From: Olsenella porci
GTDB lineage: Bacteria > Actinomycetota > Coriobacteriia > Coriobacteriales > Atopobiaceae
Assembly (NCBI RefSeq): GCF_009695875.1
Contig: NZ_VUNC01000003.1
Location: forward strand, 62,001-126,000
Reading direction: 5' to 3'
Length of the DNA: 64,000 nt
In this document: in pieces, positions 6,791 to 39,804 of the stretch
Layout of the letters: each line of letters opens with the position of its first letter
How positions within the stretch are numbered: the stretch's first letter is position 1
The notes under the pieces: generated by a model
Seen by the model: the letters and a program-made list of their open reading frames with translations, nothing else
The model's database searches: none
What the model was told of the DNA's origin: nothing
Program-made: the position numbers and the translations under genes

Positions 6791-7879
6791 ATGACAAAGC
6801 GACTCAGGCTCACCGTGGACGGAACGGAGCTGTACGCGGACCTCCTGACCAAGGAGGCGCCCCTCGCCTGCATCGAGATGGAGCGTGCCGGGCGCTTTAG
6901 GACGGTGCTCTTTGCCGCGAACGTGTGCTATGGGGAGATGACCTTCAACACGCCCGTCGCGGACTACTGGGGCGAGCAGAACGTCCAGGCAGAGACCGAG
7001 CCCGGGGATGTGACGTTCTACAACGACTGGAGCTCGGTGTGCGTGTTCACGCGCAGGATGGAGCAGTTTGGGCCGGGGGCAAAGTTCGCGCAGGTGAGGG
7101 AGGAGGACCTCCCTGCCTTCCAGCGGCTTGCCGAGCGCGCGTGGCACGAGCAGCCCATCACGGTGGAGGTCGAGGTCGTGAGCGATGCCCCCGGGGACGA
7201 GCCGTGCGCCCTGCCGGCGCCGGAGCGGCTGTTCCCGCTGCCCGCCCCCAAGACGCTTGAGGTCAGGGTGCTCGAGGACGAGCTCGAGGCCATCTGGCTC
7301 AAGCGACCAGGCGAGATCGACCGCATGGTGGAGCGCAACGCCCAGACGGGGCGCGAGTTTGGGGTGTGGGCGTATGCCTGGGGCGAGGCCGTCACGCTCG
7401 CCGACTTCCTGCGCGTGCTGTTGGGGATGGCATACGAGCGTGAGGGGAGCGTGCGCACGCTGCGGGCGGTCGCTGCCCGGGAGCTGAGGTTCTTCTCGCC
7501 CATCTTCAGGGACTCGGCGCATATGGCGCACGTCTCCGAGCTGCTTGAGGAGGCGGCGGCAGCATACGGCGAGGTCGTGTCGTTTGCCGAGTTCTATGCG
7601 CTCACGCGCGCGGTTCAGCGCTACCTGGTGCAGCTGAGCTTCTGGCTCGACATGGAGCTGCCGTGGGGCGGCGTGAGTGCGCTCGTGCATCGTGCCTGGA
7701 ATCCCGAACTGTCGGACCCCAACCTCCCTGGCGGTGCTGATGGGGTCGCCGAGCGTGACGGCAGGGAGAGCAAGGGCAAGAGGGAAAAGGACAAGTCGAA
7801 GAGCGGCGGCAAGGGCAAGGACCGCAAGAAGGGCAAGGGTCACAAGGGCAAGTCGAAGGGCCACGGCAAGGGGAAGTAG
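6791..7879 (+). CDS. cyclophilin-like (DUF3830-type) protein with Lys/Gly-rich tail
   Basis: 362 residues; the start follows GGAGG at 6781. Residues 1-110 (strands around LTVDGTELYADLL and CYGEMTFNTP, then GDVTFYNDWSS) look like the cyclophilin-fold DUF3830 family; this is a moderate-confidence call. The middle (about 130-310) is mixed helical with no recognised domain. The last about 40 residues are almost only K, G, S, R, D and H (KGKGHKGKSKGHGKGK at the end), a disordered polycationic tail suited to nucleic-acid or polyanion binding. No signal peptide. Stand-alone gene, divergent from the aldo/keto reductase. Function unknown. Confidence 0.65.
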   Translation: MTKRLRLTVDGTELYADLLTKEAPLACIEMERAGRFRTVLFAANVCYGEMTFNTPVADYWGEQNVQAETEPGDVTFYNDWSSVCVFTRRMEQFGPGAKFAQVREEDLPAFQRLAERAWHEQPITVEVEVVSDAPGDEPCALPAPERLFPLPAPKTLEVRVLEDELEAIWLKRPGEIDRMVERNAQTGREFGVWAYAWGEAVTLADFLRVLLGMAYEREGSVRTLRAVAARELRFFSPIFRDSAHMAHVSELLEEAAAAYGEVVSFAEFYALTRAVQRYLVQLSFWLDMELPWGGVSALVHRAWNPELSDPNLPGGADGVAERDGRESKGKREKDKSKSGGKGKDRKKGKGHKGKSKGHGKGK

Positions 7880-17240: not shown

Positions 17241-17488
17241 GTTCCTCTCCCCTTGCCTCGTCCAGCTGGCGGCGTCATGCCACCAGCCACGAGCCTAGCA
17301 CCACGGCGCACGTCGCCCCACTCGTGTCGGGAAGGTTTCCGCAGTCTGCATATCTCGAGCGCTGCCATCCTAATGTCCCGACGCTGCTATTATGTGAACC
17401 CGCGCGCGCCTCCGCCGTCTACGCAGGCGTGCCGTCATCTGCAGGTCCGCCCGTCACGGCACGGGGCGGAGGAGACGAGAGGAACACT

Positions 17489-19258
17489 ATGGCCCAGCAC
17501 TCCATGCACACCCACACTTGCGGCGAGCTCCGCGAGTCCAACATTGGCGAGGAGGTCACGCTGACCGGCTGGGTGTGGCACCGCCGCGATCACGGTGGCC
17601 TCATCTTCGTCGACCTGCGCGACCGCACCGGCGTGACCCAGCTGGAGTTTGACCCGGAGGTCTGCGACGAGGGCACCTTCCACGAGGCGGAGACCATCCG
17701 CTCCGAGTGGCCCATCCAGGTGAGCGGCACTGTGCGCGAGCGCCCCGAGGGGCAGGACAACGAGAAGCTGGCGACGGGCGCCATCGAGGTGTACGTGACC
17801 AAGATCGTGGTGCTCAACACCAGCAAGACGCCTCCGTTCCAGATCGAGGACCACCTGGACACTGCCGAGGACGTGCGCCTGCGCTATCGCTACCTCGACC
17901 TGCGTCGCCCCAAGATGGCCCAGAACCTCAAGATGCGCTCCGACTTCACCTTCGCCCTGCGCGAGGCGTTCCACAAGCGCGCCTTCATGGAGGTCGAGAC
18001 CCCCTCGCTCTTCAAGAGCACGCCCGAGGGCGCCCGCGACTTCCTGGTTCCCAGCCGCATGCAGCCCGGTCACTTCTACGCGCTCCCGCAGTCGCCCCAG
18101 CTCCTGAAGGAGCTTCTCATGGTGGGCGGCGTCGAGCGCTACTACCAGGTTGCCAAGTGCTTCCGCGACGAGGACCTGCGCAAGGACCGCCAGCCCGAGT
18201 TCACCCAGGTGGACGTGGAGATGAGCTTCGTCTCGCAGGACGACGTCATGGGCGAGCTGGAGGAGGTGCTTGCCGACGCCTTCGCCAAGATGGGCGTGAA
18301 GCTCGAGCTTCCCCTGCGCCGCATCAACTACTGGGACGCCATGGACACCTATGGCATCGACAAGCCTGACACCCGGTATGGCATGACCCTGCACGACGTG
18401 ACGTCGATCTTCTCAAACTCCAAGTTCAAGCTGTTCGCGAGCGCTGCCGCCACCGAGGGCCAGTACGTCAAGGCCATTAACGCCAAGGGTGCAGGCAAGT
18501 GGCCCCGCGCCAAGATCGACCGCCTTGCCGACGTCGCCGCCGAGTTTGGCGCCAAGGGCCTGGCCTACATCGCCTTCCGCGAGGATGGTTCCGTGACCAG
18601 CCCCATCGTCAAGTTCTTCTCCGACGACGAGATGGCCGCCCTGCGCTCCGAGATGGAGGTCGAACCCGGCGACCTTGTCATGTTCGCCGTCGCCGACCGC
18701 CTGCAGGCGGACCAGATCCTGGGTGGCATGCGCTGCCACATGGCAGATGCGCTCGATGTCCCGCGTCAGGGCCACGACTTCCTTTGGGTCGTCAACTTCC
18801 CGCTGTTCCACTGGGACGAGGATCGCAAGTGCCTGGACTCCGAGCACCAGCCCTTCACCCAGCCCAACGAGGACCAGCTGGACCTCCTGGAAGCCGACCC
18901 CCTCGCCATGGGTTCCCACACCTACGACTTCGTGATGGACGGCTACGAGGCGGGCGGCGGCGGCATGCGCATCCACGATGCCAAGCTGCAGGAGAAGATT
19001 CTGGAGAAGCTGGGCTTCACCCCCGAGCGTGCGCACGCCCAGTTTGGCTTCCTCATGGATGCCCTGGAGTTTGGCGCTCCTCCCATGGGCGGCTTCGCGC
19101 TTGGGCTCGACCGCGTGTGTATGCTGCTGGCCGGCGCGGACAACATCCGCGAGGTCATGGCGTTCCCCAAGACCAGCTCTGGCTCCGACCTCATGAGCGA
19201 CGCACCCAGCGAGGTCTCGGGCAAGCAGCTCAAGGAGGTCTCGCTCAGGCTCCTGTAG
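17489..19258 (+). CDS. aspS: aspartate--tRNA ligase
   Basis: 589 residues, full-length bacterial type. An N-terminal OB-fold anticodon domain (GWVWHRRDHGGLIFVDLRD, about 25-43) is followed by the class II catalytic core with YRYLDLRRP, motif 2 FRDEDLRKDRQPEFTQ and motif 3 GFALGLDRVCMLL. A GAD insertion domain lies between about 310 and 420. The start ATG follows GAGAGGA; the frame is open further upstream but without protein-like sequence. Housekeeping gene; whether it is discriminating (Asp only) or charges Asn too cannot be told here. Confidence 0.97.
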   Translation: MAQHSMHTHTCGELRESNIGEEVTLTGWVWHRRDHGGLIFVDLRDRTGVTQLEFDPEVCDEGTFHEAETIRSEWPIQVSGTVRERPEGQDNEKLATGAIEVYVTKIVVLNTSKTPPFQIEDHLDTAEDVRLRYRYLDLRRPKMAQNLKMRSDFTFALREAFHKRAFMEVETPSLFKSTPEGARDFLVPSRMQPGHFYALPQSPQLLKELLMVGGVERYYQVAKCFRDEDLRKDRQPEFTQVDVEMSFVSQDDVMGELEEVLADAFAKMGVKLELPLRRINYWDAMDTYGIDKPDTRYGMTLHDVTSIFSNSKFKLFASAAATEGQYVKAINAKGAGKWPRAKIDRLADVAAEFGAKGLAYIAFREDGSVTSPIVKFFSDDEMAALRSEMEVEPGDLVMFAVADRLQADQILGGMRCHMADALDVPRQGHDFLWVVNFPLFHWDEDRKCLDSEHQPFTQPNEDQLDLLEADPLAMGSHTYDFVMDGYEAGGGGMRIHDAKLQEKILEKLGFTPERAHAQFGFLMDALEFGAPPMGGFALGLDRVCMLLAGADNIREVMAFPKTSSGSDLMSDAPSEVSGKQLKEVSLRLL

Positions 19259-19361
19259 GTGGGGGAGAGAAGAGCGGTGTTCAGGGAGGGGGTCGTCCCA
19301 CGGGCGGCCCCCTCGCCTTGTCGTGCTCGCCGGTCCCAGCGTTTGCCGGCAATGTGGGGGG

Positions 19362-19446
19362 GCGATTTGCGTAACGTTGCAACCCGTCGCAGCGGCTTCG
19401 GACGCATACGGGCCCCTAAGCGTCCGAAGTTGCTAAGGGAAATCGC
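19362..19446. other. long imperfect stem-loop after aspS
   Basis: Outer arms GCGATTT (19362-19368) and AAATCGC (19440-19446) enclose a perfect 10-bp inner stem CTTCGGACGC (19396-19405) / GCGTCCGAAG (19420-19429), with AGC/GCT pairing between. It could end aspS transcripts. The right arm (TTGCTAAGGGAAA) resembles the first half of the 30-nt interspersed repeat. Confidence 0.5.
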
Positions 19447-19468
19447 TCGGGTCTTATGAGGACGGCAC

Positions 19469-19669
19469 CTAGAATGACCCGTCGTACCACTCGTACTCAA
19501 TGGGCGTGTTGCGTACCAGGCCACCGTCTGCGCTTGCCGTCGCGAGCGCGCACACCCGATGCGAGGAGAGAAACCCCTCTATCCGCTCGCGTAGCACCTT
19601 CGCTGGCATACGCCTCGCATCGTGCTCGCGGTCGGTTCAGTGCCTTGCCGCAGCCTCGTAGTCGATCAT
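19469..19669 (-). pseudogene. remnant of an FMN-binding split-barrel (pyridoxamine-phosphate-oxidase-like) protein
   Basis: Reading from the ATG at 19669 gives MIDYEAAARH, then TGA (19637-19639) where the family expects Trp, then in the same frame DREHDARRMPAKVLRERIEG, ...HRVCALATASADGG and NTPIEYEWYDGSF, then TAG. The HRVCALATA and TPIEYEW segments are typical of the N-terminal FMN-binding barrel of about 130-residue proteins, so this is an N-terminal third. Both stops fall at Trp positions. An internal ATG at 19609 could still make a 46-residue peptide, but without a good ribosome site. Confidence 0.7.
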
Positions 19670-19709
19670 CGTGTCCACCGTTCCCTGCCCACCTTCTTGC
19701 GCGACCCCG

Positions 19710-20216
19710 TTACGCTAGCAGCAGAGCAACAAACAACGTGAGCTGTCCGACTGCGTTTACGCCCTGTTCGGCCCAGTTTGCCCGGGCGTCGAGCTGGTCG
19801 CGCCTGCGTGCGAACCGCACCATGAGCAGCATGCAGCCCAGCCACGCCACCACAAGGGCCAGGCTGGGCATGCGTCCCAGTGAGCTAAGAAGGTCCAGAG
19901 TTCCTGCGGCATCCAATGTGGCACCCACAACCATCAGGGCGAAACCCACCGGCATCACGTAGCGCATCTGCCTGCTCAGGGCCGGCACGTTCTTGTGCGC
20001 CAGTGCCATCAAAAATTTCCAGGCGACCTTCCCCACACCGCCAGCGGTGACGAGGATTGCCCCAAGTGCCCAGGCAGGACTAGCGATGCTCCCTGCCGCA
20101 ACAAACGCCGAGGAGGCAAAGAGCGCTACGGGTACCACATCTGCCAAAGCCAGAGAGAGCGAGAAGCCCTCTGGCACCTCGCCCTTCTCGCCCTGTTCAT
20201 GCCGATCCCCTGACAT
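19710..20216 (-). CDS. four-TM membrane protein of unknown function
   Basis: 168 residues. After a polar N-terminus (about 22 residues) there are four hydrophobic segments: about 25-45 (DVVPVALFASSAFVAAGSIA), 48-68, 83-105 and 120-140, plus a hydrophobic C-terminal end (QLTLFVALLLA). The chosen ATG has AGGAG five bases upstream; an upstream ATG 17 codons earlier is less well placed. No family recognised with confidence. It lies on the opposite strand to the following DUF1295 gene. Confidence 0.6.
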   Translation of the reverse strand: MSGDRHEQGEKGEVPEGFSLSLALADVVPVALFASSAFVAAGSIASPAWALGAILVTAGGVGKVAWKFLMALAHKNVPALSRQMRYVMPVGFALMVVGATLDAAGTLDLLSSLGRMPSLALVVAWLGCMLLMVRFARRRDQLDARANWAEQGVNAVGQLTLFVALLLA

Positions 20217-20351
20217 GTCACTCCTGCCTTCGCGTGCCGTGCCTCGTACGTTCCCGATGTCTGGCACTCACGTTACCGCAACCGTATCATTGGGCGGAGA
20301 GAGACGTGCGCCGTCGGTGCGAGGCGCCAAGTTGCTGGGTGGGGGAATGTC

Positions 20352-21152
20352 ATGGGGTTCTTGGTCATGTTCTGCATAGCACTCGCCGTCAGTGCGATTG
20401 GCTTCCACAAGTTCGTGTGGTTCATCTCGCTGGGATACGGATTCTCGATGGTTGCCATCGGCGTGGCACTGCTCGTGATGTTTGCCCCCGGTGCCAGCGC
20501 TGATGCGACGGTCCCGCTCGTCATGAGCGCCCTGCTCGTGGCGTACGGGCTCAGGCTGGGCGGGTACCTGCTCGTGCGCGAGCGTCGCAGCGCGGCGTAC
20601 AACAAGGTCATGAAGACGCAGGTTAACGATGGGTCGGGCTTGGGGCTTCCTGTGCAGATACTCGTGTGGGGGTCGTGCGCGCTGTTGTATGCGTGCGAAG
20701 CCGCGCCAATCTACTTCCGACTTGCCAACGGGACACCCGCAGACGCCTGCGCCGTCGTGGGCGCCTTCATCATGGTAGGTGGCATCGTGCTGGAGTCCGC
20801 GGCTGACCTCCAAAAGACGGCGCAGAAGCGCCGCAACCCGCACCGCTTCTGTGACGAGGGCCTTTTCTCGTTCGTTCGGTGCCCCAACTACCTGGGTGAG
20901 GTCCTCACGTGGACCGGCGTCCTCGTGTCTGGCCTCACGGCACTCGCGGGTCCGTGGCAGTGGCTTGCGGCCATTGGTGGGTACGTGGCGATTGTGTACG
21001 TGATGTTTGGCGGCGCGCGCCGACTGGAGCTCCGCCAGAACCGCAATTATGGCTCGGACCCGGAGTACCAGGCCTATGTGCGTCGCACGCCCATTCTGCT
21101 GCCGTTCGTGCCTCTGTACTCCGTGGCGGACTGCACCTGGCTCAAGGGATAG
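20352..21152 (+). CDS. DUF1295 / steroid 5-alpha-reductase-like membrane protein
   Basis: 266 residues with about 6-7 transmembrane segments. The C-terminal half carries the hallmark of the isoprenylcysteine methyltransferase / 5-alpha-reductase superfamily: NPHRFCDEGLFSFVRCPNYLGE, then RRLELRQNRNYGSDPEYQAY. Relatives use NAD(P)H or SAM on lipid-like substrates in the membrane; the substrate here is unknown. Start ATG; the upstream GGGGGAATGTC gives a moderate ribosome site. Single gene, convergent with the cas2 gene. Confidence 0.8.
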   Translation: MGFLVMFCIALAVSAIGFHKFVWFISLGYGFSMVAIGVALLVMFAPGASADATVPLVMSALLVAYGLRLGGYLLVRERRSAAYNKVMKTQVNDGSGLGLPVQILVWGSCALLYACEAAPIYFRLANGTPADACAVVGAFIMVGGIVLESAADLQKTAQKRRNPHRFCDEGLFSFVRCPNYLGEVLTWTGVLVSGLTALAGPWQWLAAIGGYVAIVYVMFGGARRLELRQNRNYGSDPEYQAYVRRTPILLPFVPLYSVADCTWLKG

Positions 21153-21220
21153 GCGGGTCTCCGCGCTCCAGGGCTTCTGGGCTCACGCGAATGGCGGAGG
21201 CGAATTCTTCTGTCAGACCG

Positions 21221-21526
21221 CTACAGCTCGACCATCGTTCGAACGCCGACGCGCTCCTCCTGGTAGTCCCTCCCGCCCACTAGGTACCTCACACCTGCAA
21301 ATTGACGCTCCGTCATGCAGAAGGCGCAGATGGAGCCCGTTGTGGGAACGTGCTCCTCGAGATCGCGAAGGCAGCGTGCCGCCGTCTTCCTGCTGGGGAC
21401 GGCGCGTATGCAGACCTCGGGCTGCACGAGCGAGTATCCCAGCGTGACGAGCCGCTTCCTATAGGCGGTGTACTCGGTTTTCGTCCCCCGACGGTTTGTG
21501 GGGCGGAGCATGACCACTATGCGCAT
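21221..21526 (-). CDS. cas2: CRISPR-associated endoribonuclease Cas2 (type II-like)
   Basis: 101 residues, ferredoxin-like Cas2 fold. Family hallmarks are YTAYRKRLVTLGYSLVQPEV, then AVPSRKTAARCLRDLEEHVP and GSICAFCMTERQFA. In the first strand the usual catalytic Asp (VxxDxP) is replaced: it reads MRIVVMLRPTNRR. Cas2 is the structural bridge of the Cas1-Cas2 integrase. It overlaps the end of cas1 by 10 bases. No csn2 or repeat array follows. Likely non-functional because its partner is frameshifted. Confidence 0.85.
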   Translation of the reverse strand: MRIVVMLRPTNRRGTKTEYTAYRKRLVTLGYSLVQPEVCIRAVPSRKTAARCLRDLEEHVPTTGSICAFCMTERQFAGVRYLVGGRDYQEERVGVRTMVEL

Positions 21527-22421
21527 TGCGTCTCAGTTCCTTGCGCCAAAATTGTCGGAGTGAGCATGAGGCTCGCGTCTTCGCATGTGGTGGCGCCGCG
21601 CAGTGACTCTCCCATCCTGTTGGTCGCTCGGAGCACCGTCATCTTCTGGTTCTCCAGACATACGGTGCGCAGAAGCACACCGCGAAGCTTGCTGCGCTGC
21701 TGCCGGGAGAGCTCGCACGAGGATTCGACCACCTCCAAGGCGAGAATGTCGACCACCGGCCTGAGCGGCTCCATGATGTCGTCGGCAAGGTTAAAGGCGT
21801 TGAGCTGCGAATGATGGTGAATCCCCAGCGCGGGAACAAACCCCGCGACCACGAGTGACCGTGCTACCGCTGCCTGCACGATGGCAGCACCGTAGTTGAG
21901 CGCACTGTTCAGGGGATCCCTGCAACGTCTGTTGAGATCGGGCTGCAGATGTTGGAAGTAGCATCGGGCGGCGACGCCCTCTCGGTTGTCCGGGTCACCA
22001 GGGCAAACGCCAAGCGAGAAGCTCCACACCTCCTCTGCGCCGTCTAGCCCAAGGATGGATAGCGCCCTCGCCTGGTTCTCGATCTTCGAGACAACCACCC
22101 TCTTCCACAGAGTGGGGCCTTGAACGCTTCGGGCATGGCGGCCTGCCGAGCCGTGAGGCGGGACTGTCGTGCGTTGGCAACCATCGGGATGGTTAGGGTG
22201 CAGGGGAGATGGTTTCTCCCCATCGTGACAAGCATGATGCGATGGGCAGAAAGCTCGCCAAGGCACGTGGTTGAAAGCCTGATGTTAGGGGCATCAGCGA
22301 TGAGCATTGCGATGTCCTCTAGCGGAATGGAGGCCGTCCCCTGGTCTTGAATAACCTGGAGCTGTCCGGAGCGAGCGTGAACCTCTGCCGGGTGTTCGAT
22401 GGTAACGACTCTGAAGGCCAT
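21517..22421 (-). pseudogene. cas1: cas1 (type II CRISPR integrase), frameshifted
   Basis: Residues 1-105 run from the ATG at 22421 (MAFRVVTIEHPAEVHARSG ... MPEAFKAPL). The frame is then lost near 22105-22115 and resumes in another frame as WKRVVVSKIENQARAL to the stop at 21517. A two-base tandem gain (CTCTGTGG where CTGTGG or CTCTGG would keep frame) or a one-base loss explains it. Beyond the break the active-site motifs survive: NREGVAARCYF (Glu), GIHHHSQLNAFN (His) and DDIMEPLRPVVD (Glu/Asp), which match type II Cas1. No cas9 is found upstream. Confidence 0.88.
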
Positions 22422-22515
22422 GGCTTCCCGTTCCTGTACGACTGGGTGCGTTGAGTGAGATTGTCGTACGATGGCCGAGAACGGATGGACAATTGCGGCA
22501 AGCGCAGGAATATTC

Positions 22516-22552
22516 GTTCAACGGGGGGACAAAACTGTCCCCCCCGCTGAAC
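22516..22552. repeat. G-rich palindrome, left copy
   Basis: GTTCA-A-CGGGGGGACA pairs with TGTCCCCCCG-C-TGAAC around an AAAC loop, with one mismatch. The same palindrome recurs, perfect, at 24032-24065. It sits between the cas remnant and a truncated reading frame, with no cas9 beyond it. Confidence 0.8.
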
Positions 22553-22655
22553 GGACGGCTACGAGGACATCGTGCTCAGGGAGGAGGACGGCCCCGTGAC
22601 CGTGATCGGGACGGTCGTGTGGGTCCAGTCCGCCGACGAGATGCGCGAGGGGTAG
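22551..22655 (+). pseudogene. C-terminal remnant of an unidentified gene
   Basis: From the palindrome onward an open frame reads TDGYEDIVLREEDGP, then VTVIGTVVWVQSADEMREG and TAG (22653-22655). It has no start codon or ribosome site, ends 9 bases before the exonuclease gene, and looks like the last strands of a small domain, possibly the end of a LexA/S24-like repressor (weak guess). Its 5' part appears to have been lost at the palindrome. Confidence 0.4.
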
Positions 22656-22664
22656 GGAGCGACG

Positions 22665-23933
22665 ATGGATACGACCGACATATGCTCGCTTTTGCTGGGC
22701 GTACCCCTCGACAGGGTCGTGGTGTTCGACACGGAGACAACTGGCCTTAGGCCGGGATTGGACGAGCTGCTCCAGGTGTCCATCGTCGACGCCTTCGGGA
22801 ACAGGCTGATGGACAGCCTCGTCAGGCCGACGCGAAGGAAGTCGTGGCCAGACGCCGAGCGCATCCACGGAATCTCCCCGAGGGACGTCAGGAGGGCCCC
22901 GACCATCGACAGGCTGGCTCCCCAGATCAGGGAGATCTTCGGAGGGGACAGGCTCCTGGTCGCCTACAACATGAAGTTCGACATGGGGTTCCTGAGGGCT
23001 GCCGGGATATTCGGAAGCGAATGGAGCCCAGACCAAACCTTCGACGTGATGCTCGAGTACTTAAGGGTTCGCGGGGCTTCCTCCTGGAGCGACAGCGGAA
23101 GGTACAGGTACTCAAAGCTAACCGACTGCGCGAAGTTCTACGGGTACTCCTTCTCCGCGCACGACTCCCTCGAGGACGCTAGGGCCACGGCATGGTGCTT
23201 CCGCTCGCTCCTCTGCGACCCCGAGTACCTCAGCCTCGTGACCGAGCCCTACCCGTCCGCCAGGCAGATATCGGCGACCCAGTCCAAGTCGACGAGGGAG
23301 GCGGCATCCGACCTGCTGCCGGGACAGACGACGAGCCTGACGGGGAGCGGCGAGCTGACCCTGGGCGAGTTTGCGAGCGGCAAGTCGAAGGGCATGCCCC
23401 GCTACTTCGTGCGACTCAACGGGAGGGAGGTCGGTGCCTGCACGGCACGCGCAACCGAGAAGGTGCGCAAATTCATGCAGCTCGGACCGGAAGACGACCT
23501 TCCGGGGTCGGTGGCATGCGAGGTCGCCCTGGGCAAAGCCGACTCCGGGTCGATTCGCTGCTCGGTCACGATCTCCGAGGGGTCACCGCTAGCCAAGAAG
23601 GCGGCGGAGCTCGCCGAGAGGGACAGGCCCAAGCTACGAGAGCTCGAAGCGAACGATGCCGCCGCCAATCGGAGCATGGAGGTCAATACGGTCGCGGAGG
23701 CAAAGCCAGCAGGCCATATGCGCACTTCGCCTGAAGTGGAGCGCCACGTTGCCGGGCGGGGGCAAGCAATCATTAGGAAGCTGGTTCTCTGGTCCATCGG
23801 AGTATCACTCGCGATCCCGGGAGCCTTCGCGCTCATGTATGTGCCGTTCGGCGGCGGCCTGGCATCCCTCATCGTCGCCGTGATTCTGCTATTGCCCGCA
23901 GCGAGACTAATCGGGAAGGCCAAGAAGAGCTGA
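22665..23933 (+). CDS. DEDDh 3'-5' exonuclease domain protein with C-terminal membrane segments
   Basis: 422 residues. The N-terminal about 185 residues form a DnaQ/RNase T-type exonuclease: Exo I VVFDTETTGLRP (D, E), Exo II YNMKFDMGFL (D), Exo III HDSLEDARAT (H, D). A middle region (about 225-310) is a small beta-rich unit (RYFVRLNGREVGACTA ... VACEVALGKA), perhaps HIRAN-like. Two hydrophobic stretches near the end (about 368-418: LVLWSIGVSLAIPGAFALMY and GGGLASLIVAVILLLPAA) would anchor it in the membrane, unusual for this family. Start fixed by GGGAG. It lies beside the cas remnant between two palindromes; role unknown. Confidence 0.8.
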   Translation: MDTTDICSLLLGVPLDRVVVFDTETTGLRPGLDELLQVSIVDAFGNRLMDSLVRPTRRKSWPDAERIHGISPRDVRRAPTIDRLAPQIREIFGGDRLLVAYNMKFDMGFLRAAGIFGSEWSPDQTFDVMLEYLRVRGASSWSDSGRYRYSKLTDCAKFYGYSFSAHDSLEDARATAWCFRSLLCDPEYLSLVTEPYPSARQISATQSKSTREAASDLLPGQTTSLTGSGELTLGEFASGKSKGMPRYFVRLNGREVGACTARATEKVRKFMQLGPEDDLPGSVACEVALGKADSGSIRCSVTISEGSPLAKKAAELAERDRPKLRELEANDAAANRSMEVNTVAEAKPAGHMRTSPEVERHVAGRGQAIIRKLVLWSIGVSLAIPGAFALMYVPFGGGLASLIVAVILLLPAARLIGKAKKS

Positions 23934-24031
23934 CAGGGCGTCAATACAGACGACAAGGGCCTGGATTGCGGTAGAAAGTAGCCGCTGACGCGACCCGCGG
24001 CGCATTTCTAAGACGGACTTACCTGGGGCGG

Positions 24032-24065
24032 TTGAACGGGGGGACAAAATTGTCCCCCCGTTCAA
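24032..24065. repeat. G-rich palindrome, right copy (perfect)
   Basis: TTGAACGGGGGGACAA (24032-24047) pairs perfectly with TTGTCCCCCCGTTCAA (24050-24065), leaving a 2-base loop. Same element as at 22516-22552, 1.5 kb away. It abuts the truncated cupin gene exactly. Confidence 0.85.
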
Positions 24066-24066
24066 T

Positions 24067-24333
24067 CCGGGCTGCCGCAACAACTGGCACATTCACCACA
24101 GGGGTGGCCAGGTGCTCATCTGCATCGCCGGTCGCGGCTGGTACCAGGAGTGGGGCAAGCCCGCGCAGGAGCTGAAGCCAGGCGACGTGGTGAGCATCCA
24201 GCCCGAGGTCAAGCACTGGCACGGCGCCGCGGCGGACTCGTGGTTCCAGCACATCGCTCTGGCCGTGACCGCTGAGGGCGCCAGCGCCGAGTGGCTGGAG
24301 CCCGTCGACGCCCAGGCGTACGAGCAGCTGTAA
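24067..24333 (+). pseudogene. cupin-domain protein, 5'-truncated at the palindrome
   Basis: The open frame runs from the palindrome: PGCRNNWHIHHRGGQVLIC, then GRGWYQEWGKPAQELKPGDVV and KHWHGAA, to TAA. This is the core and end of a cupin-2 beta-barrel (metal-binding WHIHH and KHWHGA histidines kept) of the kind often paired with carboxymuconolactone-decarboxylase-like proteins in redox clusters. The start codon and first strands are missing; an internal CTC/ATG start has no good ribosome site. It ends just before a 25-bp repeat. Confidence 0.75.
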
Positions 24334-24335
24334 CG

Positions 24336-24360
24336 TGAACGGGGGACGGAGGTTTGTTCA
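24336..24360 (+). repeat. 25-bp TGAAC...GTTCA element
   Basis: TGAAC-GGGGGACGGAGGTTT-GTTCA, with 5-bp terminal inverted repeats. It starts three bases after the cupin stop. Same length and core (GGGACGGAGG) as the elements at 25854-25878 and 39780-39804. A shorter cousin of the palindromes at 22.5 and 24.0 kb. Confidence 0.75.
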
Positions 24361-24473
24361 TGCTCATGTGTGCTCCCCGCCGAACGTGCCCGTAGCTGAG
24401 CACGCCTCCAATCGAGTGCACCCTAGTCGAATGCCCCTCCACCCCAAACATGCAAGCAGTTAGGAGTACCAAC

Positions 24474-25157
24474 ATGCAGGGGAACATGCGCAAGGGCATG
24501 AAGGTCCTGGTCGACGTGGCCATGCTCCTGGACCTGGCATTCCTTGTGGCGCGCTCGCTCACGGGATTCGCCATCCACGAGTGGCTGGGCATCGGCTTCT
24601 TCGTGCTCGTCATCGCACACAACCTCCTGAACCGCCCCTGGTGGAAGACGCTTCGCAGGGGACGGTGGACGCCGCTCAGGGTGGTGGTTGCCGTCCCCAT
24701 CCTTCTGCTTGCGGGCATGGGCGTGGTACTGCTGCTGACGATTGGGCCGCTCACGACGGCGCTGCCCCTGCGCCTGCCGAGCCCTCTGGGCGTCTGGACG
24801 TCGCGTTCCGTACACGCGGGACTCGCATGCTGGATATACGTGCTGGCGCAATTCCACGTGGGGACGCATTGCGGTCGCGGCCTGCGGGGCTGGTGGAGAA
24901 GTGCAAAGGGCTCGGCGCGCCTGCTCTCTGTTGTGGTCTGCCTTGCACTTCTTGCCCTGGGCAGCTACGACTTCGTGGTCATGGGATTCCCCGTGCACCT
25001 GGCGTTTGCGTACGGATTCACAGGCGTCGCCGTCGACGCGCCCGTTGCCTATGGGGTGCTTGAGGTGCTGTTGGCGGGCTCTCCGTTTGTGTTCCTGGGT
25101 GCGTTGGCTCGCATGTTGTCAGGTCGCGGTGCTCGCTCGGGTGCCGGTGCTGCATGA
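24474..25157 (+). CDS. multi-TM membrane protein, DUF4405/cytochrome-b-like
   Basis: 227 residues with about five to six hydrophobic helices. Histidines placed in helices (FAIHEWLGIGFFVLVIAHNLL, RSVHAGLACWIYVLAQFHVG) resemble di-haem cytochrome-b-like DUF4405 proteins, which would pass electrons across the membrane. The ATG is preceded by AGGAG; an ATG eight codons earlier lacks one. Its stop overlaps an upstream start of the flavodoxin-lipoprotein gene, so the pair may work together as membrane electron carrier and exported flavoprotein. Haem binding is inference. Confidence 0.65.
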   Translation: MQGNMRKGMKVLVDVAMLLDLAFLVARSLTGFAIHEWLGIGFFVLVIAHNLLNRPWWKTLRRGRWTPLRVVVAVPILLLAGMGVVLLLTIGPLTTALPLRLPSPLGVWTSRSVHAGLACWIYVLAQFHVGTHCGRGLRGWWRSAKGSARLLSVVVCLALLALGSYDFVVMGFPVHLAFAYGFTGVAVDAPVAYGVLEVLLAGSPFVFLGALARMLSGRGARSGAGAA

Positions 25158-25174
25158 CAGAATTGGAGAAGGTC

Positions 25175-25771
25175 ATGGGGAACCATGAGGACATCACTCG
25201 CAGGATGTTTGTCACGGGGGCGTTTGCGATTGCTGCCGGGCCAGGCCTTTCAGCATGCGGATCCACTTCGACGGGCAGCTCGAGCTCCTCGCAGGCTTCC
25301 TCCCAATCTGCGACTGCCGCATCAGACTCCAACGACGGCGCCACGGGAGAAAGCGACTCCCGCAAGGTCCTGGTGGCGTACTTCTCGGCCCAGGGCCACA
25401 CCAGGCGCGTCGCAGAGCGCATCGCCCAGGACGCCGGTGGCAACACGTTCGAGGTCCTGCCCACCCAGGCCTACTCGGATGACGACCTGGGCTACAACGA
25501 TGACACCAGCAGCGTCAGCAAGGAATACCAGGACCAGAACCTTCGCGACGTGTCCCTGCGGCAGACGACCCCGGATGGTTGGGCCGACTACGACACCGTC
25601 TTTGTGGGGTACCCCATCTGGTGGGGCGACTACGCGTCGCCCATCACTCACTTCGCCAGCGATAACGACTTCACGGGCAAGAGGGTCATCCCGTTCTGCA
25701 CGTCTATCTCCTCCGGCCTGGGTAGTTCCGCAAAGAACTTGGCCACTGTTGCGGGTACCGGTGACTGGTAG
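25175..25771 (+). CDS. Tat-exported flavodoxin-like lipoprotein, shortened by a stop codon
   Basis: 198 residues from this ATG (GGAG six bases upstream; a start at 25154 is possible). Signal: TRRMFVTGAF with RR at 9-10, then lipobox LSAC with Cys28, a Ser/Thr-rich linker, and a flavodoxin fold with FMN phosphate loop YFSAQGHTRR, then GYPIWWGDYASPITHF. It is closely similar to the intact paralogue at 37150. That protein continues past GDW with about 22 more residues; here GDW is followed by TAG (25769-25771), and the expected tail is still readable in frame (RFRENPSESDVDSW) to TGA at 25835-25837. CAG to TAG is the simplest change. Lost last helix, so function is doubtful. Confidence 0.82.
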   Translation: MGNHEDITRRMFVTGAFAIAAGPGLSACGSTSTGSSSSSQASSQSATAASDSNDGATGESDSRKVLVAYFSAQGHTRRVAERIAQDAGGNTFEVLPTQAYSDDDLGYNDDTSSVSKEYQDQNLRDVSLRQTTPDGWADYDTVFVGYPIWWGDYASPITHFASDNDFTGKRVIPFCTSISSGLGSSAKNLATVAGTGDW

Positions 25772-25853
25772 GCTTGCCAGCGCTTTAGGGAGAACCCGAG
25801 CGAAAGCGATGTCGACAGCTGGGTCAGAGAAGGATGAACATGGGACGAAGGGA

Positions 25854-25878
25854 TGAACGGTCCTCCGTCCCTTGTTCA
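25854..25878 (-). repeat. 25-bp TGAAC...GTTCA element, inverted, with a partial direct copy
   Basis: On the minus strand it reads TGAAC-AAGGGACGGAGGACC-GTTCA. Immediately left, 25835-25853 carries a degenerate direct copy (TGAACATGGGACGAAGGGA). It lies between the flavodoxin and the LysR gene, right at the former's original stop. Confidence 0.75.
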
Positions 25879-25886
25879 TGTGTGGC

Positions 25887-26726
25887 CTATTCCTCAAAGA
25901 GGTCGAGCACTCGGCGTACCTGGTCGCTCGAGTCGTTCAGGCATACCGCGAAGTACGTGGCGCTGGCGCCGGTGCCCCAGATGGGGATGCGCACGCGTCC
26001 CGTGGTGGGGTGCGAGAACGCCGACGCATCAGTCACGAAGTTCAGCAGGTCGGACGAGGCTATCAGCTGCGTAAAGACCTGCGGGTCCTGCTGCACGATA
26101 ATCTGCGAGTCGGGCAGGTTGTCGTGCACGACGTCCATCCAGAATCCGATGGACTCCAGCACCAAAAACGGCCTGCCGTTGAGGTCGTTCCAGGTCACGT
26201 GATCCATGCCAGCGAGGTCGCTGTTGGGTGGCATTTCCACCGACAGGTTCTCGGTAAGCAGGCGGCGGGAGCTGACGGTGGGGAGGGCCAGCGGGTGCAT
26301 CAGGATGGCCAGATCTACCGTCCTGTCAAGGAGGCCCTTTTCCAGATCCTGCTCATCCATGTACTCGGTCGAGAAGATCGTGCCGGGATGGGCGGCCACC
26401 GTTCGCTCGGTGAGAAGCCACATGGGGGCGGGGGCCACGGTGCCCAGCCTGATGGTCCGCATGCGCTTTGCATGCTCGTCCAGGTCGCCGCGCATCGTCT
26501 GCACATCCGCCAGCACCTTGCGTGCCCCATCGACGGCAATGGCTCCGGCGTCGTTCAAAATCACGCTGTTGCGCGTGTGAGTAAACAGGTCCTGTCCCAG
26601 CTCGTGCTCCAGCGCGCGGACGCTCCTGCTGATGGACGGCTGTGATATGTGCAGCTGCTCGGCCGCCTTTGACATGGTTCCGTATTCTGCGATGGCTACC
26701 AGTTGTCGCAGTTGCTCGAGTTCCAT
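25887..26726 (-). CDS. LysR-family transcriptional regulator
   Basis: 279 residues. HTH at about 3-60 (LVAIAEYGTMSKAAEQLHIS, QPSISRSVRALEHELG) and a compact effector domain. Divergent from the MFS exporter gene; the shared 147-bp gap holds the TTGTAC-type promoter, so this protein is a candidate controller of the MFS gene and perhaps of the other units with the same promoter. It is the only intact LysR gene inside the redox cluster, since the second at 29.5-30.2 kb is frameshifted. Inducer unknown. Confidence 0.92.
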   Translation of the reverse strand: MELEQLRQLVAIAEYGTMSKAAEQLHISQPSISRSVRALEHELGQDLFTHTRNSVILNDAGAIAVDGARKVLADVQTMRGDLDEHAKRMRTIRLGTVAPAPMWLLTERTVAAHPGTIFSTEYMDEQDLEKGLLDRTVDLAILMHPLALPTVSSRRLLTENLSVEMPPNSDLAGMDHVTWNDLNGRPFLVLESIGFWMDVVHDNLPDSQIIVQQDPQVFTQLIASSDLLNFVTDASAFSHPTTGRVRIPIWGTGASATYFAVCLNDSSDQVRRVLDLFEE

Positions 26727-39779: not shown

Positions 39780-39804
39780 TGAACAAGGGACGGAGGCTCG
39801 TTCA
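39780..39804 (+). repeat. 25-bp TGAAC...GTTCA element
   Basis: TGAAC-AAGGGACGGAGGCTC-GTTCA, five bases after the aldo/keto reductase stop; same family as 24336-24360 and 25854-25878. Confidence 0.75.

Follow-up and report, generated by a model that had tools for sequence, protein, structure and literature searches.

The locus examined here raises the question of why an intact exonuclease gene should lie between two nearly identical palindromes, each placed where a neighbouring gene is broken off. The first-pass annotation of this 64,000-nucleotide stretch of the Olsenella porci genome (hereafter the window) had proposed an inserted or recombined cassette that uses the palindromes as its joints. 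The comparisons described below suggest instead a scar left by rearrangement and not a functioning machine, with orphan REP-like palindromes at deletion joints around the remnant of a lysogeny module, a reading to which we assign a probability of about 0.55.

Results

Two palindromes with a copy number of two

The matching palindromes that had been described as framing the exonuclease gene were recovered at 22516–22552 (left; 37 nt, GTTCAACGGGGGGACAAAACTGTCCCCCCCGCTGAAC, with an imperfect stem) and at 24031–24066 (right; 36 nt, GTTGAACGGGGGGACAAAATTGTCCCCCCGTTCAAT, with a perfect stem of 15 bp), neither having an assigned strand, and 27 of the 29 positions of their common core are identical. 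Both fold as DNA with a stability that none of 200 shuffles equalled (z = −5.25 for the left and −7.08 for the right palindrome). With up to three mismatches allowed, the core gave four strand matches within the window, none of them outside the two palindromes, against 0.22 expected, and none of 100 shuffles reached four. In the whole 2.36-Mb genome, the scan for the stem that the first-pass annotation had recommended returned GGGGNACANNNNTGTNCCCC at two places only, namely the two framing palindromes. A shorter core with two mismatches allowed hit 19 additional places, all carrying two core mismatches, compared with 8 for the reversed pattern used as the control; no further palindrome of this kind was found in the genome by these pattern searches. 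One weak promoter-like match lies immediately upstream of the left palindrome.

Broken genes at both palindromes

The frame reported to begin without a start at the left palindrome is indeed present and corresponds to the 3′ end of an XRE-S24 (CI-like) repressor gene (22553–22655, plus strand), consisting of the last 33 codons and the stop; positions 22554–22655 translate as DGYEDIVLREEDGPVTVIGTVVWVQSADEMREG followed by the stop codon. The fragment by itself has no Pfam match, and its assignment comes from alignment with the C-termini of the repressors at two related loci, L028 and L034 (none of 1000 shuffles equal for each), and, more weakly, with that of L029 (9 of 1000 shuffles equal), HTH_3 and Peptidase_S24 domains being present in the repressors of the aligned relatives. 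The distance from the repressor stop to the exonuclease start is 9 nt here, 9 nt in L028 and 13 nt in L034. Compared with the relatives, about 180 repressor codons are missing to the right of the left palindrome, a joint that is defined from its right side only, the DNA on its left side not being alignable to relatives beyond the start of cas1.

That left-side DNA contains a type II-like cas1 on the minus strand (21517–22421), split into two overlapping frames (22421–22044 and 22266–21517) that match Pfam Cas_Cas1 with 18.9 bits (below the cut-off) and 52.4 bits, respectively, and of which both match NCBIfam cas1_NMENI. It is followed by a type II-like cas2 in an open frame (21221–21526, minus strand), recognized by NCBIfam TIGR01573 (28 bits; cut-off 24.5) and by PADLOC as Cas2_II, with no Pfam match at 0.001. 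No CRISPR-like direct-repeat array was found in 19200–21300, and the cas1–cas2 pair is a decayed, type II-like one. In the relatives of cas1 (L225, with 67% DNA identity, and L226–L228), the match extends no further than about the cas1 start, and less far in L228 and L227. A deletion of cas9 at the left palindrome was considered and dropped because no Cas9-sized frame was seen upstream of cas1 in L225, L226 and L227, viewed over 1.2 kb, to base 7000 and over 0.9 kb, respectively. Elsewhere in the window, an aspS leader RNA (17404–17483; Rfam RF02930, 75.3 bits) lies near the start of an aspartyl-tRNA synthetase-like frame, the gene being named by eye.

At the right joint, the cupin frame of the window (P0001, 100 aa from 24031) opens inside the palindrome, which encodes its residues 1–9, and the match to P0001 starts at residue 10 in every one of the 11 relatives for which loci were returned, in agreement with the claim that the palindrome cuts this gene at its first preserved codon. 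What remains is a 3′ remnant of a CMD-cupin gene (24061–24333, plus strand) that has lost its start and retains about 90 of about 250 codons. The frames of the relatives comprise 250–267 codons in eight of the 11 cases and 155, 150 and 110 codons in the other three, the 110-codon frame being located at a contig start; one relative (L079) was shown by Pfam to have both CMD and Cupin_2 domains. The DNA of five relatives runs continuously across the site with the palindrome absent. Compared with the relatives, about 160 codons (the CMD half) are missing to the right of the right palindrome. The trinucleotide TTC is shared by both sides of this joint. The order of genes downstream is conserved in another genome of the comparison (G120): cupin, an unassigned gene, flavodoxin, LysR, MFS and Fe-ADH.

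Because coding sequence is missing to the right of both palindromes, the pattern is one of deletion and not of a clean insertion; given the repressor tail at the left and the replaced 5′ part of the cupin gene at the right, the palindromes may therefore be regarded as deletion joints. The cassette proposal is thus supported in part: the palindromes do lie exactly at gene breaks when compared with the relatives, but no sign was found that palindrome, exonuclease gene and palindrome moved as a single unit.

The exonuclease and its module in relatives

The gene between the palindromes (22665–23933, plus strand) is intact and encodes a predicted DEDDh 3′–5′ exonuclease of 422 residues (Pfam RNase_T, 68.3 bits; PHROG 192; alignment). 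Residues D22, E24, D106, H166 and D171, which we take to be the DEDDh positions, are present and invariant in five aligned relatives, and the domain match together with these five expected catalytic residues supports the initial assignment as a DEDDh exonuclease at the level of sequence. Among solved structures, a PolC-type exonuclease domain (2p1j) is the nearest chain in sequence. Compared with DnaQ-like DEDDh exonucleases (2p1j; ExoX, 4fzx), the sequence matches across the exonuclease domain but contains in addition a central part of unknown fold and ends in a hydrophobic C-terminal stretch, the latter judged by eye. No relative was found with the exonuclease as query in the genome contig collection, and distant matches were obtained in 33 records of the phage collection and 2427 records of the plasmid collection, none with at least 80% query coverage. 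A second, shorter DEDDh exonuclease of the own genome (197 aa) lies on contig C8 (L036:6094–7467), near a sequence whose translation, SAPRIRGDDP, presumably resembles type I-E CRISPR repeats.

In five of the ten family loci (L027–L036), the exonuclease stands between a repressor or HTH gene and a recombinase (L027:4530–7345, L028:5005–8206, L029:4186–7361, L033:3773–6787 and L034:5185–7690), an order not seen in L030, L031, L032, L035 and L036, the last being the second copy of the own genome. The same order occurs in two of the three viral loci viewed out of 80 fetched (L145:4563–7460 and L146:4704–7445; not in L147). The recurring module is composed of an HTH or S24 repressor, a DEDDh exonuclease and then a tyrosine-type integrase or a serine recombinase; the recombinase of L028 has a PHROG integrase match and no Pfam match. 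Downstream of the window exonuclease there is no integrase or recombinase, only 97 nt without a listed frame and then the right palindrome. The likeness to prophage lysogeny modules (S24/CI repressor, accessory gene, recombinase) lies in the repressor tail just upstream of the exonuclease, whereas the window differs from them in having a truncated repressor and no recombinase. Because of the repressor tail and the module order in some of the relatives, the interior is best read as a probable remnant of a lysogeny module of a prophage or integrative element, lacking the recombinase as well as the front of the repressor.

The palindrome in another family

Scanning 395 genomes of the order revealed the palindrome with full arms in G244 and G277, which belong to a different family of this order; it is identical to the right palindrome in 34 of 36 positions. 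G244 has a second copy, with no right arm, whose end lies in a C-run at the start of a duplication of about 800 bp, so that one copy in that family also sits at a joint. The two G244 palindromes are 2.6 kb apart and frame a VWA-domain gene (L118:1792–4432), most of the framed segment being 96% identical with G277, a genome of another genus; the shared segment reaches past the palindrome (L118:842–4020) and holds an IS110-type transposase sequence. Pfam confirmed the labels CMD, VWA, IS110, aldo/keto reductase and MatE.

A family-wide scan for the palindrome core gave matches in three of 140 genomes, the own included; those in G115 and G116 were set aside as coincidence, lying inside a 268-aa reading frame with the arms absent. 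A looser scan of the order gave 27 of 395 genomes, the own included, and among the places whose flanks were viewed (at least one per genome, and some of the places in G176 and G363), full arms occurred only in the own genome, G244 and G277. The 21 matches in G176 were rejected as a different repeat, judging from the five matches listed. Viral contigs gave two matches for the core, both without arms.

A 25-nt repeat clustered nearby

A second REP-like element, 25 nt long, occurs in three copies within 15.5 kb to the right of the palindromes and nowhere else in the genome with up to two mismatches. The copies lie at 24336–24360 (plus strand), adjoining the end of the cupin frame, at the place of the last codon and stop of the gene in G120; at 25854–25878 (minus strand), after a flavodoxin-like gene and with a degenerate neighbour at 25836; and at 39780–39804 (plus strand), immediately past the stop codon of an aldo/keto reductase gene. 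All three are thus at gene ends, and the syntenic relatives used for comparison (L086; L088 and L089) do not have them there. The repeat shares with the palindrome arms the motif TGAAC-G-run-GAC, and on the basis of this one short shared arm the two elements may be kin. The two palindromes and the three repeats all fall inside 17.3 kb, for which p is about 1e-8 if the five elements are placed independently at random, an independence that may not hold.

The copy between the flavodoxin and LysR genes sits where G120 alone has about 700 bp; it was not counted as a deletion here because these 700 bp may be an insertion in G120. Read by eye, they resemble a toxin–antitoxin pair. The flavodoxin-like gene of the window (25154–25895) has a premature TAG relative to G120.

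Among named genomes, 23 contigs proved to carry the 25-nt repeat, in a total of 26 stretches; their labels are Coriobacteriia families, Coriobacteriales or actinobacterium, with the exception of one Bacteroidales-labelled bin. Viral contigs gave no exact match. An inverted partner lies at most 125 nt downstream of 22 of the 37 copies in the other genomes (14 of 26 loci; three of the 37 are too close to a contig end for this test), compared with 0 in the shuffled control. The gaps of these 22 inverted doublets measure 29–45 nt in 17 cases, 4–8 nt in four and 70 nt in one. By the same test, the three copies in the window are singlets (0 of 3 with a partner).

Possible relation to REP elements and RAYT genes

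REP/REPIN elements have mostly been studied as high-copy passengers in proteobacteria, and a literature search found nothing on REP or RAYT in Coriobacteriia, Eggerthella or Actinobacteria, nor on the letters of the repeat. The resemblance to REP/REPIN systems with a RAYT (TnpA-REP) lies in the short, G+C-rich palindromes, in the 25-nt repeats at gene ends, which often form inverted doublets in other Coriobacteriia, and in the similar repeats that flank some RAYT-like genes. The length and hairpin folding of the palindromes agree with the size of about 20–50 nt given for REP palindromes in one source (PMC8266576). However, instead of many dispersed intergenic copies there are two, located at gene breaks; the GT[AG]G tetranucleotide, as read from the sequence, is missing at the palindrome foot, as it is from some REP classes according to another source (PMC6006769); and a Y1 gene is lacking. 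Because of the copy number, the Y1 gene and the foot motif, the palindromes are REP-like and not REP elements proper.

The search for a Y1/RAYT transposase that had been proposed with the cassette came back empty: PF01797 has no match at E 0.001 in the own genome, which is 98.95% complete in 15 contigs. The same model matched nine of ten genomes picked for such repeats (G244 being the one without) and also five of 14 controls, a trial from which related repeat-free genomes were absent save the own genome. At three of the 12 Y1 loci viewed there are look-alike repeats, which flank the RAYT-like gene in L126 (UBA5906) and L124 (G277) and stand beside it in L133 (G176; GGGGACATTTTGTCCCC); in none of these 12 loci was the 36-nt palindrome as such found next to a Y1 gene. 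The other nine have no flanking repeats by the same test, including L127–L130 with the RAYT-like genes of UBA3686, RUG440, RUG11770 and RUG14206, though these genomes carry the 25-nt repeat. Eight of the 12 Y1 proteins were tested: the best match of seven is the NCBIfam REP-associated tyrosine transposase, with 49.6–61.4 bits (below the cut-off of 80), and the L123 protein is an IS200 transposase; the match tested in Senegalimassilia (G395) is an IS200 transposase and not a RAYT. Because look-alike repeats flank Y1/RAYT-like genes at these three loci, a REP/RAYT-type connection of the palindromes has some support.

Discussion

The results described above can be accommodated in the following course of events. 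A temperate phage or an integrative element would have carried a lysogeny module of S24 repressor, DEDDh exonuclease and recombinase, of which the complete exonuclease gene and the end of the repressor gene would now remain. On the right side of each palindrome, coding DNA (about 180 repressor codons and the CMD half, respectively) would have been deleted up to the palindrome edge. The palindromes are possibly collapsed REP doublets, that is, ‘double-foot’ REPs, which, according to one source, could come from an inverted REP dimer by central deletion (PMC6006769), and a RAYT-type enzyme of a donor or an ancestor may have spread them in trans. They would then have caused the deletions rather than arrived later, either through cleavage of single-stranded DNA or through breaks that the hairpins provoked and that were repaired at short homologies, for instance TTC or C-runs. 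In the choice between a cause of the deletions and merely their edges, we favour the causal role because both breaks here and one in G244 coincide with a palindrome. The module order is observed in some of the relatives and the unbroken cupin gene in relatives as well, and a Y1 gene is absent here.

It is conceivable, although unlikely, that the palindromes are fragile sites only. Extruded as hairpins or cruciforms, they would be cut, or would be skipped during replication, and end-joining would leave deletions at their edges, no transposase having brought these copies here. The stability of both hairpins and the short homologies at the joints (TTC at the cupin gene, the C-run in G244) would be expected from such a process, which nevertheless leaves unexplained the presence of a near-identical 36-nt palindrome in two families and the clustering of related repeats nearby.

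A composite cassette, in which palindrome, exonuclease gene and palindrome form one mobile unit whose ends are recognized by a Y1-type (RAYT/IS200-like) enzyme in trans, would account for the near-identical hairpins 1.5 kb apart and would have a counterpart in the bracketed VWA-domain gene of G244, in a segment mostly common to another genus. We consider it quite improbable. The hairpins at both ends recall non-autonomous elements of the IS200/IS605 type, from which the window differs in lacking a Y1 gene, in the sequence lost at both right edges and in the lack of an observed empty site, the genus being represented in the comparison set by the own genome alone. Moreover, the segment shared by G244 and G277 exceeds the palindrome, and its movement is explicable because the IS110-type transposase sequence lies within it.

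That the palindromes are ordinary regulatory or terminator hairpins, to which the breaks are unrelated, would fit their position at gene edges, and common terminators had been named at the outset as a reason to abandon the cassette. Terminator-like sites are absent from 22300–24500, however, as is a T-run after the stems, and because of this and of the two genome copies the palindromes are unlike common terminators; as both also coincide with gene breaks, such an origin has very little to recommend it. Finally, that the exonuclease serves the adjoining cas1–cas2 pair as a DEDDh adaptation nuclease is hardly credible, for although the PADLOC CRISPR-associated DEDDh model matches it with 106.1 bits, generic DnaQ-type models match as well, this kinship looks incidental, and the gene lies on the opposite strand beyond a palindrome from a cas1 in two frames with no array found beside it, while several of its relatives belong to repressor–exonuclease–recombinase modules and largely lack a nearby cas1.

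Returning to the palindromes as deletion joints, a bolder extension, which we regard as a long shot, would make collapsed REPINs a recombination tool: low-copy hairpins of the form GTTGAACGGGGGGACA-NNNN-TGTCCCCCCGTTCAAC, distributed across families of Coriobacteriia, would join captured pieces of foreign genes, with RAYT-like enzymes driving the process in trans. If this were true, single genes would be left framed by two hairpins, as are the exonuclease gene here and that of the VWA-domain protein in G244. The comparison also draws attention to a recurring module, a DEDDh exonuclease with a phage-type repressor on one side and a recombinase on the other. With a low-copy REP-like palindrome found at joints in two families of Coriobacteriia, a possible role of REP-type hairpins in gene loss and gene capture would become directly testable.
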